Below are positions 55,315 through 62,403 of a stretch of DNA of 64,000 bases, piece after piece. The notes beneath the pieces were generated by a model, which made no database searches, was not told the origin of the DNA, and worked only from the letters and a program-made list of their open reading frames with translations. Where the stretch lies: the NCBI RefSeq assembly GCF_024139115.2, contig NW_026942880.1, forward strand, positions 213,328-277,327, in the 5' to 3' direction. A program made the translations under genes and the position numbers. Every line of letters begins with the position of its first letter. The stretch's first letter is position 1. Source of the stretch: Armigeres subalbatus. Its lineage: Eukaryota > Arthropoda > Insecta > Diptera > Culicidae.

Positions 55315-55793
55315 CTGGGTGGTGCGGATAGAATCGATTTGGTTGTCAAACTGAAGCCAAAAATTTCTATTGTGCCGGAGCCAAACATTGAAGATTGTGG
55401 TTATGTTCGTTTCTGATTTAATATTGAGAAGTATTGTTATTATTTGGAGAAAAAATAAAAATAAACTTTGTTTGAGTTTTGTATTCTTTGTAACAAATAT
55501 TCTCACATTATATTTCGAGTGGAAAATTAGTAGGAATGCAACTAAAAAGCACTCGTTACGAAATTTCTTGAGATTCAGCAGCTGATTGGAGCATGAATGT
55601 ATGTAAACAATCGTTAAGTCATGTAGAGTCTAGCGCATTTGTGCGCCCTCATGCAGCGTGGAAAGAGAAACTCGAAGAGCGGGAAATGTTTGACAGCCAA
55701 GTAACTGCAAAATAATTTTGTTTATGGGAGCGATTTCAAAATTTCCCTTTACTCACTTGAGCGCAGAAAAGCGGCTCTATCCGCAGCACCCAG
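55315..55793 (+). mobile_element. 479-bp hAT-type non-autonomous element, copy 1
   Basis: Ends CTGGGTGGTGCGGATAGA / TCTATCCGCAGCACCCAG (one mismatch in the core). Exact 8-bp duplication TACTACAC at 55307-55314 and 55794-55801. No coding capacity. Copy 2, almost identical in length and layout, is at 61874-62353, and a fragment is at 46065-46152. Confidence 0.93.
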
Positions 55794-56109
55794 TACTACA
55801 CTAATAAAAATCCACACATTTTTATTGCGATTTTTTTCACCATTTAGACTCTTATGATAAAAATTTCGTCTTACTCAGATTTCGCTTTCGATTTCGCTGC
55901 TGGCTACCGTGCGCATTTCACTTGAAGATCGTGACAGCTGCCACAAGCCCCCTCATGTTTACATATTTTTTCATAGTTCTCAGCTCTCCAGCTGCACTGA
56001 TACAAAGCGTATAGTAAATTCAACCATGGTGCTGTAGTAAAAATAACAAATTCTAGTGTTGTCAAAATAAATACAAAGATCGTTGAAATAACAACATTGT
56101 TTTTAAAAA

Positions 56110-56148
56110 CACTATGCTAACACGGTATATTTTACCGTGTACATAGTA
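56110..56148. repeat. Subterminal hairpin in the CACTA-like element
   Basis: ACTATGCTAACACGGTA and TACCGTGTACATAGT are near-perfect inverted copies around a TATTT loop. It lies about 120 bp inside the left end. It could be a transposase-binding or regulatory site, or a tiny insertion. Confidence 0.75.
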
Positions 56149-56268
56149 AAAACAACAACATCTGCTCCTGGTTCACTTGACTGACATTTTTCATCATTAC
56201 ACGTCATCTTAACCGCCAGAACGTATTAACGATTTAAGTTCTTGTGTTATTTTAAATCTAATGTAAAA

Positions 56269-58229
56269 ATGAATGCGCAAAACGAAAACCAAATGGTTAA
56301 AATCCCTGTTGATGGTATAATTGAGGAAGAAGAGCTAGCTGATGGTTTGTATGGCTATGTTTTAGAAGACATTTATCGTAAAACCTTGTTTCTTCCTACA
56401 GCCTGTGATGAAAACCCAGAGCTACGTAAACTGATCGTCGATAATTGGCAAATGGATTCATCAATCTATTCTATTTTGATCGGTAAGATTATTTTGTGTT
56501 AGTTTTTGCTGAATTCGTATAAGTTTTTCAATATAGGACATGGTGTGACGGTGGAATATCTTGCACTCATTGACGAAGTGGCCTTGGCAGATATTTTCTC
56601 AGTCGCGAAGTGGACAGGCCATAAGCACGCTCTCAGGAGAAAGTTACAGCTGTGGGAAAAAAGTGCTATGTTTCAGGTAGATCCGGTGATCAAAAATTCA
56701 CCCATCGTTAGCAACCCTGGTCCATCTCAAACACAAGTTCTCGCATCAGCACCCCAATATCCTCTTCTGCCTACATCAGTTACTCTGAATCTTCTGGAGG
56801 ACATTCTCGGAAGGAACGAAAAAGGGAAGATTGTGACACAGTTTTATAAAACTCATCAGCGACTAGACACTCAACATAGGAAGTACTTGGCACACACCGT
56901 AGTCGACTATTACATTGCGAATGGCAATTATTTCCCGATACCAGATATGGCACGATTTTCACAATGCATCGCAGAGAAATTTCCACCAGAGCTACCAGTA
57001 ATTAACCACATTATGTAGTAACCCAACCCTCATTACATTTTTTTCCTCCACAGGAAGTGTACTTCAATCCACGGAACGTAGCGATAAACAAAAAGCATCC
57101 AACTGGGATTCTCTATGATCGGTTCCACAACCGGAACAAAAAGCATCAGCTGCTAAGCAAACTGGAGCAGAAAAATACCACCGTCGATTATTGGAAAATC
57201 TTCAAGGCCAAGGCTTTGACTTTGACAAGTGAAGGTATTATTGTTGTCTGTTGATTGTTTTTTTTATTAATAATGTAATCTTTGATTTCAGAAATCAAAA
57301 AACAAAATTCGTTTAAATCATGGCTCCGAAATAATCAACAACCCTCCGAAAAAGTAGTAGATCATTGGCGAGAATCGTTTTTACTGCGCGTTAGAGAAAT
57401 TGTGGGAGAGACAGATCCAGATAAGGGGCAGCTGGTGGCTGAATGGCCAAGATTGGCTGATGAAAACGGTTACCTACTGGTAAGCGCGACTTTTTTAAAT
57501 TTGTATACTTTATTTCTAAGTACGTTTAATTCATTCATAGATTGATGCCGACTTCGAGGCTATCTACCGAAACTCAACCGGGTCTTCTATTTTCGAGGAA
57601 TGGGATGGTTTTATTCCTCGCTTTCTGGAATACGTTCAACTGAATGGCTTGAAGGATGACTATTCTCGTCAACTGCTGATACAACTGGAGGAGGAAGTTG
57701 TCCCTAAAGGTTTGTTATTAGCCATGAATAAATTTTGGGGAAAGTAACTCAATAATTGATTATTTCAGATACTCGTGACTTCATTTGCTGTACTATTTTT
57801 CATGGTCTTGTTAAGCCCGTACGGACATCATTGCGAAAGTTACCAAGCATCCTTCAAGCACAAACTGACATGTGCTATGCATGTGCAACTTACGAAGAGT
57901 TTCTCGAAGCAGTGAGCTCATTGCGTAACGAGCTTTTCTCGGATAAAATTCCTTTCACTCCTCGCATATATGTTGTTGGTCAAGTTGGTGAGTTCACTGG
58001 ATTCTACGTAGTTACTTCAAAACTTCAGTACCAGCTGCCGACATTCCTCCGGTGCGTCGATCTAATAGTTAAAATTAAATTTACCCTCAACTACGAATTT
58101 CCCGAGAGCTGCGAGTTGTTTTGGTGTTTCATCGCCAAACACTTCTACAAGCTTGATTTCTCGCGTAAGGCGAAGAATAGCCAACTGCTCCAGCTCTTTG
58201 CGCACTTGGGAAACAACTTGCCATCATGA
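56269..58229 (+). CDS. ORF1 of the CACTA-like element: six-exon SAM-like protein, 557 aa
   Basis: Exons by consensus splice sites: 56269-56482, 56537-56997, 57054-57234, 57292-57479, 57541-57709 and 57769-58229. Every junction has GT...AG and preserves frame, giving 1,674 nt (557 codons and TGA). The start is the ATG at 56269 (context AAAAATGAA). Residues ~60-112 (HGVTVEYLALIDEVALADIF, then WTGHKHALRRKLQLWE) resemble a sterile alpha motif, an oligomerisation or binding fold. Residues ~150-225 (LEDILGRNEKGKIVTQFYKT onward) and the C-terminal part (YQLPTFLRCVDLIVKIKF) recall large SAM-domain proteins annotated as SAMD3-like in animals. Introns are short (52-62 nt), typical of dipterans. An extra donor-like GTGAGT at 57987 could allow alternative splicing. 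Its role is inferred: accessory factor for the adjacent transposase, or a captured host gene. Confidence 0.72.
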
Positions 58230-60670
58230 ATTGTCATCTGTGTCAAGCCTCTTACGAATCAGTTCAACACATTTTCGACCACCTGACAATATACCACAGT
58301 ACTCCGACAGTCTTCAAGTACATGTGCACAGCATGTGTACCATCAGCATCGTTCCAGAACCTCCATCGTTTTAAACGTCACGTCAACATGAAACATCTCG
58401 ATTTATTCAAACCGGTCGCTGCTGAGCGAAATCCCAATCAAACAACATCGAGTATCGCTAACCACGATCTGGTGGAACTCGATATCGATATGGAAGAGTG
58501 CCGTGAAATGCCGCATACAAACAAGGACCCTGAAATACAGAATATGGGAGACCAAAAGAAAAATCAAATATGTGATAAAGATATACTAGATATAAGAAAT
58601 ACTCTAAGAGAAAAGTTTTTAAATTTTACTTTAAGCCTACATGATAAGTCCAATTACACAAGGAAAGATGTAATCATTTTACAAAAAGCCATTACTGAAG
58701 AAGTTGTTAAACCTATATGTGATGCATTGCTGAAAGTTGCTTCTATAAATGACAGTAAAGTTTGTGTCAAAGAGTTGATTAATGATATCTATCAACCTTT
58801 TCAATTCATAGCTACTGAACAAAAATTCAATGCTACGTTACAGAGAATTAATCTTAACGATGAATTACACGTGATCAATTTTAGGGACGATGAAGAAAGC
58901 ATAGTTTCTAAAGGATGCTTGATGCCCATCAAACAACAGTTCAAACGCTATTTTGAAAGTGGAAACGTATTTAAGGAGACAATCGAGCATATGAGAGTGT
59001 TAGATAACAGTGAAGAAATTGCAAATCTCGTTAATGGTACACTATGGAAAAACGTTCGAAAAGAGTATGAAGGTAGCATAGTCGTTCCCTATTTTTTGTA
59101 CTCAGATGAAGTTGAATTGAACGATGCAATAGGAGCTCACTCTGGTACTCATAAAGTAACAGGTCTTTATTACAATTTCCCCACGATACCATCACATTTT
59201 TTATCACGCTTGGAGAACATCTTTGTAGCAGGTTTCATAAAAGCATCCGATTTGGCCCGTCTTGGTCCGTCTAAGGCATTAGAAGAATTAATTGATATTT
59301 TGATTGAGTTAGAGCAAGTTGGAATAAATTTGATAATAGATGGCGATGACGTTCGTGTATATTTCGTATTGATGGGTATCCTGGGTGATAATCTAGGAAT
59401 CAACACACTTATGGGCTTCGCAACATCCTTTAGCTCACTACTGTATTGCAGATTTTGTACGCAAAATAAATACGATTCGCAAACCGCTATAAGTCTAGAT
59501 CCTAATCGTAATCGAACAAGGCAAAAGTATGAAATTGATGTACAGAAAAGTTTCAAAGAATCAGGGATAAAGGAAGCTTCTGCCTTTAATAAAATGAAGC
59601 ATTATCATGTAGCTGATTTTGCTATCGTTGACATTATGCATGATTTCTATTCCCACGGTATTTGCAGCTATGATTTATCTCTGGTTTTGTCATACATGAT
59701 ACAAACTTTACAAATATCTTTGCAGACTATCAATTATCGAATACAACAGTTTGATTTTAAGGAGACAGAAAACAGAAACACATTCAAAGTAATATCGCGA
59801 GACCATATAAAATCAGCCAGTTTTAAAATGACTGCCAGAGAAATGATGCTATTTGTTCATTACTTCCCTTTATTGTTTGGCGATGTGATACCAGAAAACG
59901 ACAAAGTTTGGAATTTTATTCTTTCTCTTATTGAGTTAACTTCTCTTGTGTTGTTACCTAAATTTAATAACGAATTGCTGAAAACTCTAGAAGATCAAAT
60001 TGAATATCATCACTTTCATTATAGGCAGCTTTTTGCAGAGCCACTCAAACCTAAATATCACATTTTATTGCATTATGTTCAAACCATTAGGAAAATTGGA
60101 CCTCCGCGTTACACTTGGAGTTTTCGCTTTGAAGCATTCCACCAAATTTTCAAAAAGTATTGTAGGAATATTACTTCTAGACGAAACATATGTTTTACGT
60201 TATGCACTAAGGCTAAGTTGATATTCATGAACGACATAAAACATCTGAATCATTTTAAAGATCCCTTAACATATAAAAATCCAATAAGTTTACGATCTAT
60301 CGATTTGCCATACTTTTCAAAGTTAAATTTAACAAATGAACTGCTGACATTAAACTTTAAGACAGTTTGCGCTTTGACATATAAGGGTACTGAGTATAAG
60401 GTTGGACAATTTCTCACGAAGTCCCTCTCTAATCTAAGATCAGTAGAGTTGTATGAAATTAAAGACATATTGATCTCAAATAACACGGTAAGAATCGCAT
60501 GCCAACAATGGGAGGTGGAAGAATACTGTTATCATTTTGCAGCATTTAAAGTTAATATGGCTAAGTCAGTGTACGATATAATGACCATTGATGTGTTTGA
60601 TGGACCTCCTATTCATGTATATAATGTTCAAGATGTTAGTTATATAAGGCTTAAAAAATACTTTCTGTAA
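58226..60670 (+). CDS. ORF2: CACTA/EnSpm-like transposase, 814 aa
   Basis: Single uninterrupted ORF; the ATG at 58226 overlaps the ORF1 stop (ATGA). Two C2H2 fingers are at residues 3-24 (CHLCQASYESVQHIFDH) and 34-57. Residues ~80-270 are charged and linker-like. The catalytic region includes LYSDEVELNDAIGAHSG (D294), LGDNLGINTLMGF (D388), YCRFC (C408/C411), VDIMHDFYSHG (H472-D473) and WSFRFEAFHQIFKKY (E636). This series of boxes is what I know from animal EnSpm/CACTA-type transposases, where a DD...E triad cuts the ends. Assignment of the three acids is a proposal: D388, D473, E636, with D294 as an alternative. PKYHILLHYV upstream of the RFE box fits the same family. Expected role: nuclear transposase acting on the CACTG ends. 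No internal stop or frameshift. A captured, domesticated host protein is the alternative, less likely given the intact element ends. Confidence 0.8.
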   Translation: MNCHLCQASYESVQHIFDHLTIYHSTPTVFKYMCTACVPSASFQNLHRFKRHVNMKHLDLFKPVAAERNPNQTTSSIANHDLVELDIDMEECREMPHTNKDPEIQNMGDQKKNQICDKDILDIRNTLREKFLNFTLSLHDKSNYTRKDVIILQKAITEEVVKPICDALLKVASINDSKVCVKELINDIYQPFQFIATEQKFNATLQRINLNDELHVINFRDDEESIVSKGCLMPIKQQFKRYFESGNVFKETIEHMRVLDNSEEIANLVNGTLWKNVRKEYEGSIVVPYFLYSDEVELNDAIGAHSGTHKVTGLYYNFPTIPSHFLSRLENIFVAGFIKASDLARLGPSKALEELIDILIELEQVGINLIIDGDDVRVYFVLMGILGDNLGINTLMGFATSFSSLLYCRFCTQNKYDSQTAISLDPNRNRTRQKYEIDVQKSFKESGIKEASAFNKMKHYHVADFAIVDIMHDFYSHGICSYDLSLVLSYMIQTLQISLQTINYRIQQFDFKETENRNTFKVISRDHIKSASFKMTAREMMLFVHYFPLLFGDVIPENDKVWNFILSLIELTSLVLLPKFNNELLKTLEDQIEYHHFHYRQLFAEPLKPKYHILLHYVQTIRKIGPPRYTWSFRFEAFHQIFKKYCRNITSRRNICFTLCTKAKLIFMNDIKHLNHFKDPLTYKNPISLRSIDLPYFSKLNLTNELLTLNFKTVCALTYKGTEYKVGQFLTKSLSNLRSVELYEIKDILISNNTVRIACQQWEVEEYCYHFAAFKVNMAKSVYDIMTIDVFDGPPIHVYNVQDVSYIRLKKYFL

Positions 60671-60742
60671 AGTTTTATCAGAAAAAATATAATGTAAAAT
60701 ATATGCATAATCAAATCAATAATGTATTTTAAAGACTCGAAC

Positions 60743-60818
60743 GCAATATATCGGAACGGAGAAGGTAACGGCAAGACCTAGCGGCCCTAGCGTTAGCGGT
60801 GCCGTTCCGAATAATTGC
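60743..60818. mobile_element. 76-bp palindromic MITE-like insertion
   Basis: GCAATATATCGGAACGG (60743-60759) and CCGTTCCGAATAATTGC (60802-60818) are inverted with two mismatches. The core is rich in CTAGCG words. The GCAATAT-CGGAACGG signature relates it to the 110-bp MITE at 48725-48834. It lies between ORF2 and the right end of the CACTA-like element. Confidence 0.65.
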
Positions 60819-61190
60819 TATGAAGGCTTAATTATTGCTAAATTTGCGGAATATAGGTCCTATATTCTGATTTTTCACGATTCCAAAGCATCAAAGACAA
60901 AAAAGAATATTCATTTTGAAAAAATACTATATAATGCAGTTAAGTTTACTACATGATTGTAATTTTAAATGCAAAAAATCGTTGTTTTTTTGACATTTTA
61001 TTTCGCTTAAAATAACTATATTTTATGGTATTTTTGACATTTGTTTGTTTATTATGCAACCATGGTAAAAAATACTACACAATTCATTTGAAATGAATGC
61101 GGTATGTAGTCTGCACAAATCAATTGGTGTTGTGCATTTAATTTAAACTATCAATATGGTATTTCTTACCACAATGCTGTTTTCAGTGTG

Positions 61191-61664: not shown

Positions 61665-62403
61665 CACTGCCAAAAATATCTATATAAGATATATGTGTCG
61701 CCGTTATAAATTTTTGCAATAGCTCCACCCTAATATAGTCGATATAAAACCACACATAAAATAAATAATTGTTAATTCGAGACCACACATAAAGTTTATT
61801 TGGACATATATTTTATTAGTAGTTCGCGTGGAGAATGGTTATGTGTGCGCTGATATACATCATAAGTTAAATCCTGGGTGGTGCGGATAGAATCGATTTG
61901 GTTGTCAAACTGAAGCCAAAATTTTCTATTGTGCCGGAGCCAAACATTGAAGATTGTGGTTATGTTCGTTTTAGATCTTATATTGAGAAGTATTGTTATT
62001 ATTTGGGGAAAGAAATAAAAATAAACTTATTTTGAGTTGTGCATTCTTTGTAACAAATATATTCACATTATATTTCGAGTGGAAAATTAGTAGGAATGCA
62101 GCTAAAAAGCACTCGTTACGAGATTTCACGAGATTCAGCAGCTTGTTGGTGCCGGAATGTATGTAAACCACCGTAAAGTCATGTATAGTCTCGCGCATTT
62201 TTGCGCCTTCATGCAGCGTGGAAAGAGAAATTCGAAGAGCGGGAAATGTTTGACAGCCAAGAAACTGCAAAATAATTTTGCTTATGAGATTGATTTCAAA
62301 ATATCCCGCTACTCGCTTGAGAGCAGAAAAGCGGCTCTATCCGCAGCACCCAGGTTAAATCTATGGATTTTTGCCAATAAATATGTGTGGATTTTTAGTA
62401 GTG
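61665..62403. mobile_element. TA-flanked element (CACTGCCAAAAAT ends) with nested hAT-type copy
   Basis: The left end CACTGCCAAAAAT and the right end ATTTTTAGTAGTG are imperfect inverted repeats, flanked by TA (61663-61664 and 62404-62405). Inside are several TATGTGTG/CACACATA words. After removal of the 480-bp hAT-type insertion the element is about 250 bp. Tc1/mariner-type by TA duplication. A related terminus lies at 55799-55825 beside hAT copy 1. Confidence 0.65.
61874..62353 (+). mobile_element. 480-bp hAT-type non-autonomous element, copy 2
   Basis: Same ends as copy 1 (CTGGGTGGTGCGGATAGA / TCTATCCGCAGCACCCAG). Exact 8-bp duplication GTTAAATC at 61866-61873 and 62354-62361. It lies inside a TA-flanked MITE. 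Confidence 0.93.

Follow-up and report, generated by a model that had tools for sequence, protein, structure and literature searches.

The locus examined here, in the mosquito Armigeres subalbatus, raises the question of whether DNA that reads like a transposon is a complete element, of which kind, and whether it might still move. The window (the whole stretch of 64,000 nucleotides [nt] that was analyzed, C1147:213328-277327 of the 1.336-Gb assembly in which we searched for further copies) contains an element with two open reading frames (ORF1 and ORF2), which an initial annotation described as an apparently intact, autonomous CACTA/EnSpm-like transposon. It is very probably a structurally complete cut-and-paste transposon of the CACTA-related (CMC) kind, with ORF2 as the transposase that would bind, excise, and reinsert it through its CACTG ends with a 2-bp target duplication. 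The ends, the duplication, an empty site, the open frames, further copies, and deletion derivatives can be read directly from the sequence; the fold of ORF2 and its BAH-like tail are predictions of a structural model.

The termini read CACTG at 55995-55999 and CAGTG at 61184-61188 and are flanked on both sides by TG, as initially annotated (Table 1). Further copies with the same ends had been named beforehand as a test, and such copies were found: among fetched loci whose alignment started at most 12 bases from the end, all 19 distinct 5′ ends begin exactly with CACTGA, 17 of them reading CACTGAAA and two (the window copy and one other) CACTGATA. The bases just outside these ends are TA in 12 cases, CA in 5, and TG and AA in 1 each; the CA-flanked ends of loci L022 and L041 probably represent a single insertion, because the flank is common to both. 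For 3′ ends, which were taken from fetched loci only, matches were kept if they stopped no more than 15 bases short of where the query ends. Both ends could be read in 12 copies (the window copy, C2:286080808-286085293, and ten shorter elements), and 11 of these have equal 2-bp flanks (TA in 8 and TG, CA, and AA in 1 each), the exception being L032, the 3′ end of which is degraded. Permutation of the 3′ flanks among the 12 copies gave a mean of 6.25 matches, compared to the 11 observed (P = 0.0007). The initial annotation had anticipated duplications of 2 to 3 bp; the shorter length held, and equal 3-bp flanks were found in none of the 12. Since other copies start exactly at CACTGA and repeat the 2-bp flanks, chance can be ruled out for both ends and flanks. 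A related empty site (C3:182107203-182107319) carries a single TG and matches the joined flanks of the window over 119 bp (89.9% identity), which places the breakpoints at exactly 55995 and 61188, as had been proposed.

CMC elements (CMCT if Transib is included) are defined in the excerpted text of PMC12730594 by the catalytic order D, D, C(2)C, H(3-4)H, E, by 5′-CA..TG-3′ termini, and by a target duplication of 2 to 5 bp. ORF2, an uninterrupted second gene as initially reported, has this order (D294, D388, C408xxC411, H612xxxH616, and E636), and the element has the termini (CACTG...CAGTG) and a duplication within the range (11 of the 12 copies show 2 bp, and the empty site carries just one TG). 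The boxes singled out beforehand proved to be conserved, with H472 and D473, like D294 and D388, invariant across 27 aligned proteins and E636 present in at least 90% of them, and both frames are under constraint in comparisons between families. The C2H2 fingers, also named initially, were recovered by a profile match; the single-sequence Pfam match was below the cut-off. Searches for known transposase families returned little: ORF2 has no match to Transposase_21 (tnp2) in Pfam and none to RAG1 at an E value of ≤1, RAG1 is not among the matches listed (60 of 96) in the ORF2 profile search, and a PDB sequence search with ORF2 gave no transposase relative. Among the relatives, P0029 has matches to Transposase_21 (0.0012, below the cut-off) and, weakly, to RAG1 (0.25), P0028 has a weak match to Plavaka (0.092), and 12 of the 27 members have below-cut-off matches to DUF4218 at 0.1 or better.

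The predicted core of ORF2 is a RAG1-like RNase H fold of the DDE recombinase type, which agrees with the DDE fold proposed as a check by the initial annotation and is to be expected because of the CMC signature. Structures have been solved for the RAG1, RAG-like, and Transib transposases; for a CACTA transposase, we know of none. In the aligned core, ORF2 is about 10% identical to the RAG1, BbRAGL, and HzTransib recombinases (PDB), from which it differs in the addition of C2H2 fingers before the core and of a BAH-like domain after it; the target duplication is 2 bp here, as opposed to 5 bp for RAG1 and Transib. The C-terminal tail is predicted to adopt a BAH fold, with the BAH domains of DNMT1, BAHCC1, and ZMET2 as its nearest likenesses; this likeness comes from the predicted fold, and no Pfam BAH match was found among the 27 members. 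Unlike the RAG1-like core, this tail was not expected, nor was the stop-start overlap described below. In listings of the open-access literature, we found no paper in which "BAH domain" occurs together with CACTA and no report of a BAH histone reader in a DNA transposon; the listed papers that combine BAH terms with "transposase," one of them on transposable elements of fungi, do not contain "DDE."

We propose that the fingers and the RAG1/Transib-like DDE core of ORF2 would bind the CACTG ends, and that ORF2 would then excise the element and insert it elsewhere, with a 2-bp duplication as the result that is mostly TA but also CA, TG, or AA. The BAH-like tail, if the model is right, may tether the transposition complex to chromatin.

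Table 1. Features of the element (window positions)
Feature	Positions	Strand	Evidence
Complete transposon, 5194 bp	55995..61188	+	Single-TG empty site; further copies with the same ends
Left target-site duplication, TG	55993..55994	.	Window flanks, empty site, flank comparison across copies
Right target-site duplication, TG	61189..61190	.	Window flanks, empty site, flank comparison across copies
Left terminal inverted repeat, CACTGATA	55995..56002	+	5′ end reads
Right terminal inverted repeat, CACTGAAA, read on the minus strand	61181..61188	-	End reads
ORF1 exon 1	56269..56482	+	Spliced reading; SAM-like stretch begins at ~56407 (match in relative P0031)
ORF1 exon 2	56537..56997	+	Spliced reading; SAM-like stretch ends at ~56676 (match in relative P0031)
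ORF1 exon 3	57054..57234	+	Spliced reading
ORF1 exon 4	57292..57479	+	Spliced reading
ORF1 exon 5	57541..57709	+	Spliced reading
ORF1 exon 6, TGA stop at 58227-58229	57769..58229	+	Spliced reading
ATGA, ORF2 start overlapping ORF1 stop	58226..58229	+	Spliced ORF1 and junction comparison
ORF2, transposase, 814 amino acids	58226..60670	+	Open reading frame, aligned relatives
Two C2H2-type zinc fingers, residues 1-60	58226..58405	+	Profile match to TFIIIA fingers, E 2.5e-6
RAG1/Transib-like recombinase core, residues 127-682	58604..60271	+	Predicted structure
D294 codon, proposed catalytic acid 1	59105..59107	+	Invariant, 27 aligned proteins
D388 codon (GDN), proposed catalytic acid 2	59387..59389	+	Invariant, 27 aligned proteins
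C408xxC411, proposed zinc half-site	59447..59458	+	Invariant, 27 aligned proteins
H612xxxH616, proposed zinc half-site	60059..60073	+	Invariant, 27 aligned proteins
E636 codon, proposed catalytic acid 3	60131..60133	+	In ≥90% of 27 aligned proteins
BAH-like C-terminal domain, residues 680-808	60263..60649	+	Predicted structure

The first gene, ORF1, reads in frame through its six exons as annotated (557 codons, no internal stop, all introns GT-AG), and the NCBI model LOC134219850 (P0030), which derives from another copy, has identical junctions over the overlap. ORF1 appears to encode a conserved accessory protein, with a SAM-like domain only weakly supported, and is probably a partner in assembly or end binding. 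Its stop codon overlaps the ORF2 start, and we compared the first in-frame ORF1 stop at each readable junction (six further loci had none). AUGA occurs in all four copies of the window family and in one copy of the L049/L051 family, the other copy of which is one base short and stops 17 nt downstream; both copies of the C2020 family (L052 and L064) have UAAUG; and in all three copies of the L046-L048 family, ORF1 stops occur 38 and 14 nt upstream of the ORF2 AUG. The overlap is thus found in three of four families, always in the same relative frame; these earlier stops rule out an overlap in all families, and AUGA and UAAUG differ by a 3-nt shift within one frame, not by a frame change. Since L046, L047, and L048, at three places, share both early stops, that sister family spread with a shorter ORF1.

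How ORF2 is expressed allows two answers. We lean slightly toward an element as described here in which ORF2 has its own transcript, made by alternative splicing or from an internal promoter as in SmTRC1 and maize Spm, with AUGA reflecting compact packing. SmTRC1 and Spm yield multiple spliced transcripts (PMC1636069, in the excerpted text), and alternative transcripts of the kind shown for SmTRC1 are a priori likelier than coupling. The upstream stops of the L046-L048 family point the same way, as do an NCBI model in Malaya genurostris that comprises ORF2 only (P0014) and the junction RNAs, for which eight folds from the four families gave z scores of −1.93 to 1.24 and nothing consistent. Against this stand the overlap in three of four families and the listing of AUGA and UAAUG among the overlap forms for coupled termination-reinitiation in the excerpt of PMC5972666, which also describes similar coupling in the SART1 retrotransposon. 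Translation of ORF2 from the spliced ORF1-ORF2 mRNA through reinitiation at AUGA is possible but somewhat doubtful. As in SART1 and the viral cases (PMC5972666), a UAAUG/AUGA overlap lies between two ORFs of one element; unlike in those cases, the element is a DNA transposon, ORF1 is spliced, no flanking RNA structure was found, and the overlap is known from sequence. The open-access literature yielded no report of reinitiation for DNA transposons, and among the matches listed only a DENR paper contains the term. A broader proposal, that this lineage couples the dose of a RAG1-like transposase to that of a SAM-like protein by reinitiation on a bicistronic spliced mRNA while a BAH histone reader steers the complex, seems rather unlikely.

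Whether this copy can still move is a separate matter, and a recently dead relic (a young insertion, immobile, with frames that are open by chance) is a serious alternative, though not the favored one. Copy numbers are lower bounds from searches of the genome. Extended matches at 92 to 100% piecewise identity to the window lie on C3 (182.11 Mb), C2 (286.08 Mb), and C803, and none of these three copies is unbroken. In the C3 copy, two stops fall within ORF1, ORF2 is interrupted by insertions of ∼6.7 and ∼10.9 kb, and no 3′ end was found within the stretch read; the C2 copy is longer by a net 17 bases in ORF1 exon 6, has lost ∼1 kb of ORF2, and carries a short insertion beyond; and the C803 copy has three insertions in ORF2 and lacks the 5′ part on its contig. 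Partial copies lie on C1394, C1910, C3 (41 Mb), and C1 (80.77 Mb). The broken state of the other long copies would fit a relic, as would the CACTGATA end and the location on an unplaced contig. On the other side, both ORFs and every splice site are intact, the window copy being the only one read with both frames open, and it is 99.2% identical to the C3 copy over 2,953 bp, so the family must have moved recently. Ten short elements (982 to 1,313 bp) retain pieces of the initial 1 kb and the terminal 0.3 kb, with ∼61 to 87% identity to the window piecewise and up to 97.4% among themselves; we read them as deletion derivatives mobilized in trans.

Several points weigh against a complete and active CMC transposon. 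That the copy may be autonomous and still active is read from the integrity of its frames, and an open frame is no proof of function, since the open ORF2 of a sister element has an altered MHD box. The description as intact holds for both ORFs, the splice sites, and the ends, except that the 5′ end departs at position 7 from the form found in 17 of 19 copies. The inverted repeats are short, ORF2 matches no Pfam transposase model above the cut-off, and the empty-site match extends just ∼14 bases to the right of the joint and lies within a 90%-identical repeat, not in an orthologous allele. The sister element in question (L055, L046, and L056; C1:30.64 Mb) has an ORF2 of 815 open codons, and its ORF1 match begins only at exon 6 in the stretch read.

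In its classification, the element belongs to a known kind, being a complete CMC-type transposon with exact boundaries. The label CACTA/EnSpm-like stands in the sense of CACTA-related, with which the ends, the 2-bp duplication, the catalytic order, and the RAG1-like predicted fold agree; the 3-bp duplication of EnSpm/CACTA in the narrow sense (PMC12730594) was found in none of the 12 copies. CA..TG ends and a short target duplication are shared by EnSpm/CACTA, Mirage, Chapaev, Plavaka, and Transib, according to the excerpt of PMC12730594. It is unlikely that the element belongs to another CMC-type lineage with the same catalytic order, such as Mirage, ESTA, or Plavaka, and not to CACTA proper: the 2-bp duplication, the ends and 2- to 5-bp duplications that CMC-type lineages have in common (PMC12730594), and the weak Plavaka match would suit this, but the CACTG ends and the below-cut-off Transposase_21 and DUF4218 hints oppose it, and CACTA-type animal TRC elements (transposons related to CACTA) likewise have 2-bp flanking repeats (PMC1636069). 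TRC elements, reported in 2006 from animals including Aedes aegypti and Tribolium, are the nearest likeness in the 2-bp duplication: as excerpted, PMC1636069 describes a CACTA-related transposase that has a glutamate and CxxC besides two conserved aspartates, direct repeats of 2 bp at the ends (also in the 9.2-kb Aedes aegypti element), several proteins per element, and, for Tribolium, a similar length of ∼5.2 kb. TRC ends, however, start with CCC (Aedes, CCCAGTCAAC), as opposed to CACTGA here, and the excerpted description, the basis of this comparison, mentions neither a BAH-like tail nor a stop-start overlap between ORF1 and ORF2. Mosquito elements related to CACTA are already published, and this family may already carry a name in Repbase, which lies outside the literature covered. 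The terms CACTA, CMC, and "DNA transposon" are absent from the main text of the host genome paper (PMC12333114).

That ORF1 and ORF2 are host genes resembling a transposon, or a domesticated copy, is suggested by the constraint on the frames between families but is extremely improbable, and we reject it because of the empty site and the copies at many places, together with the target duplications and deletion derivatives.

Because the copy is complete, its ends are exact, its 2-bp target choice is known, and both of its proteins are available, the mechanism of this widespread superfamily would become testable in an animal. A BAH-like tail that reads a histone mark would be the equivalent, in a DNA transposon, of the chromodomains of retrotransposons; if ORF2 is made by reinitiation, control of transposase dose in a eukaryote would be directly measurable.

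Some smaller observations concern the ends and their surroundings. The motif CAACCATGGT occurs in the same orientation near both ends (56018-56030 and 61054-61066), and CCATGG motifs resembling it are common among the 5′ ends that were read; these are possible candidates for subterminal binding sites. The loci with the common CA flank, C3:182113199 (L022) and C1394:407801 (L041), are 99% and 92% identical to the window element, respectively, as if a duplication had copied the insertion or a second haplotype had been retained as a separate contig. The left flank of the element contains a 299-bp repeat (55495-55793) that is 90% identical to 62055-62353, to the right of the element, and 92% identical to positions 2769-3067 of L056, beyond the sister element on C1.
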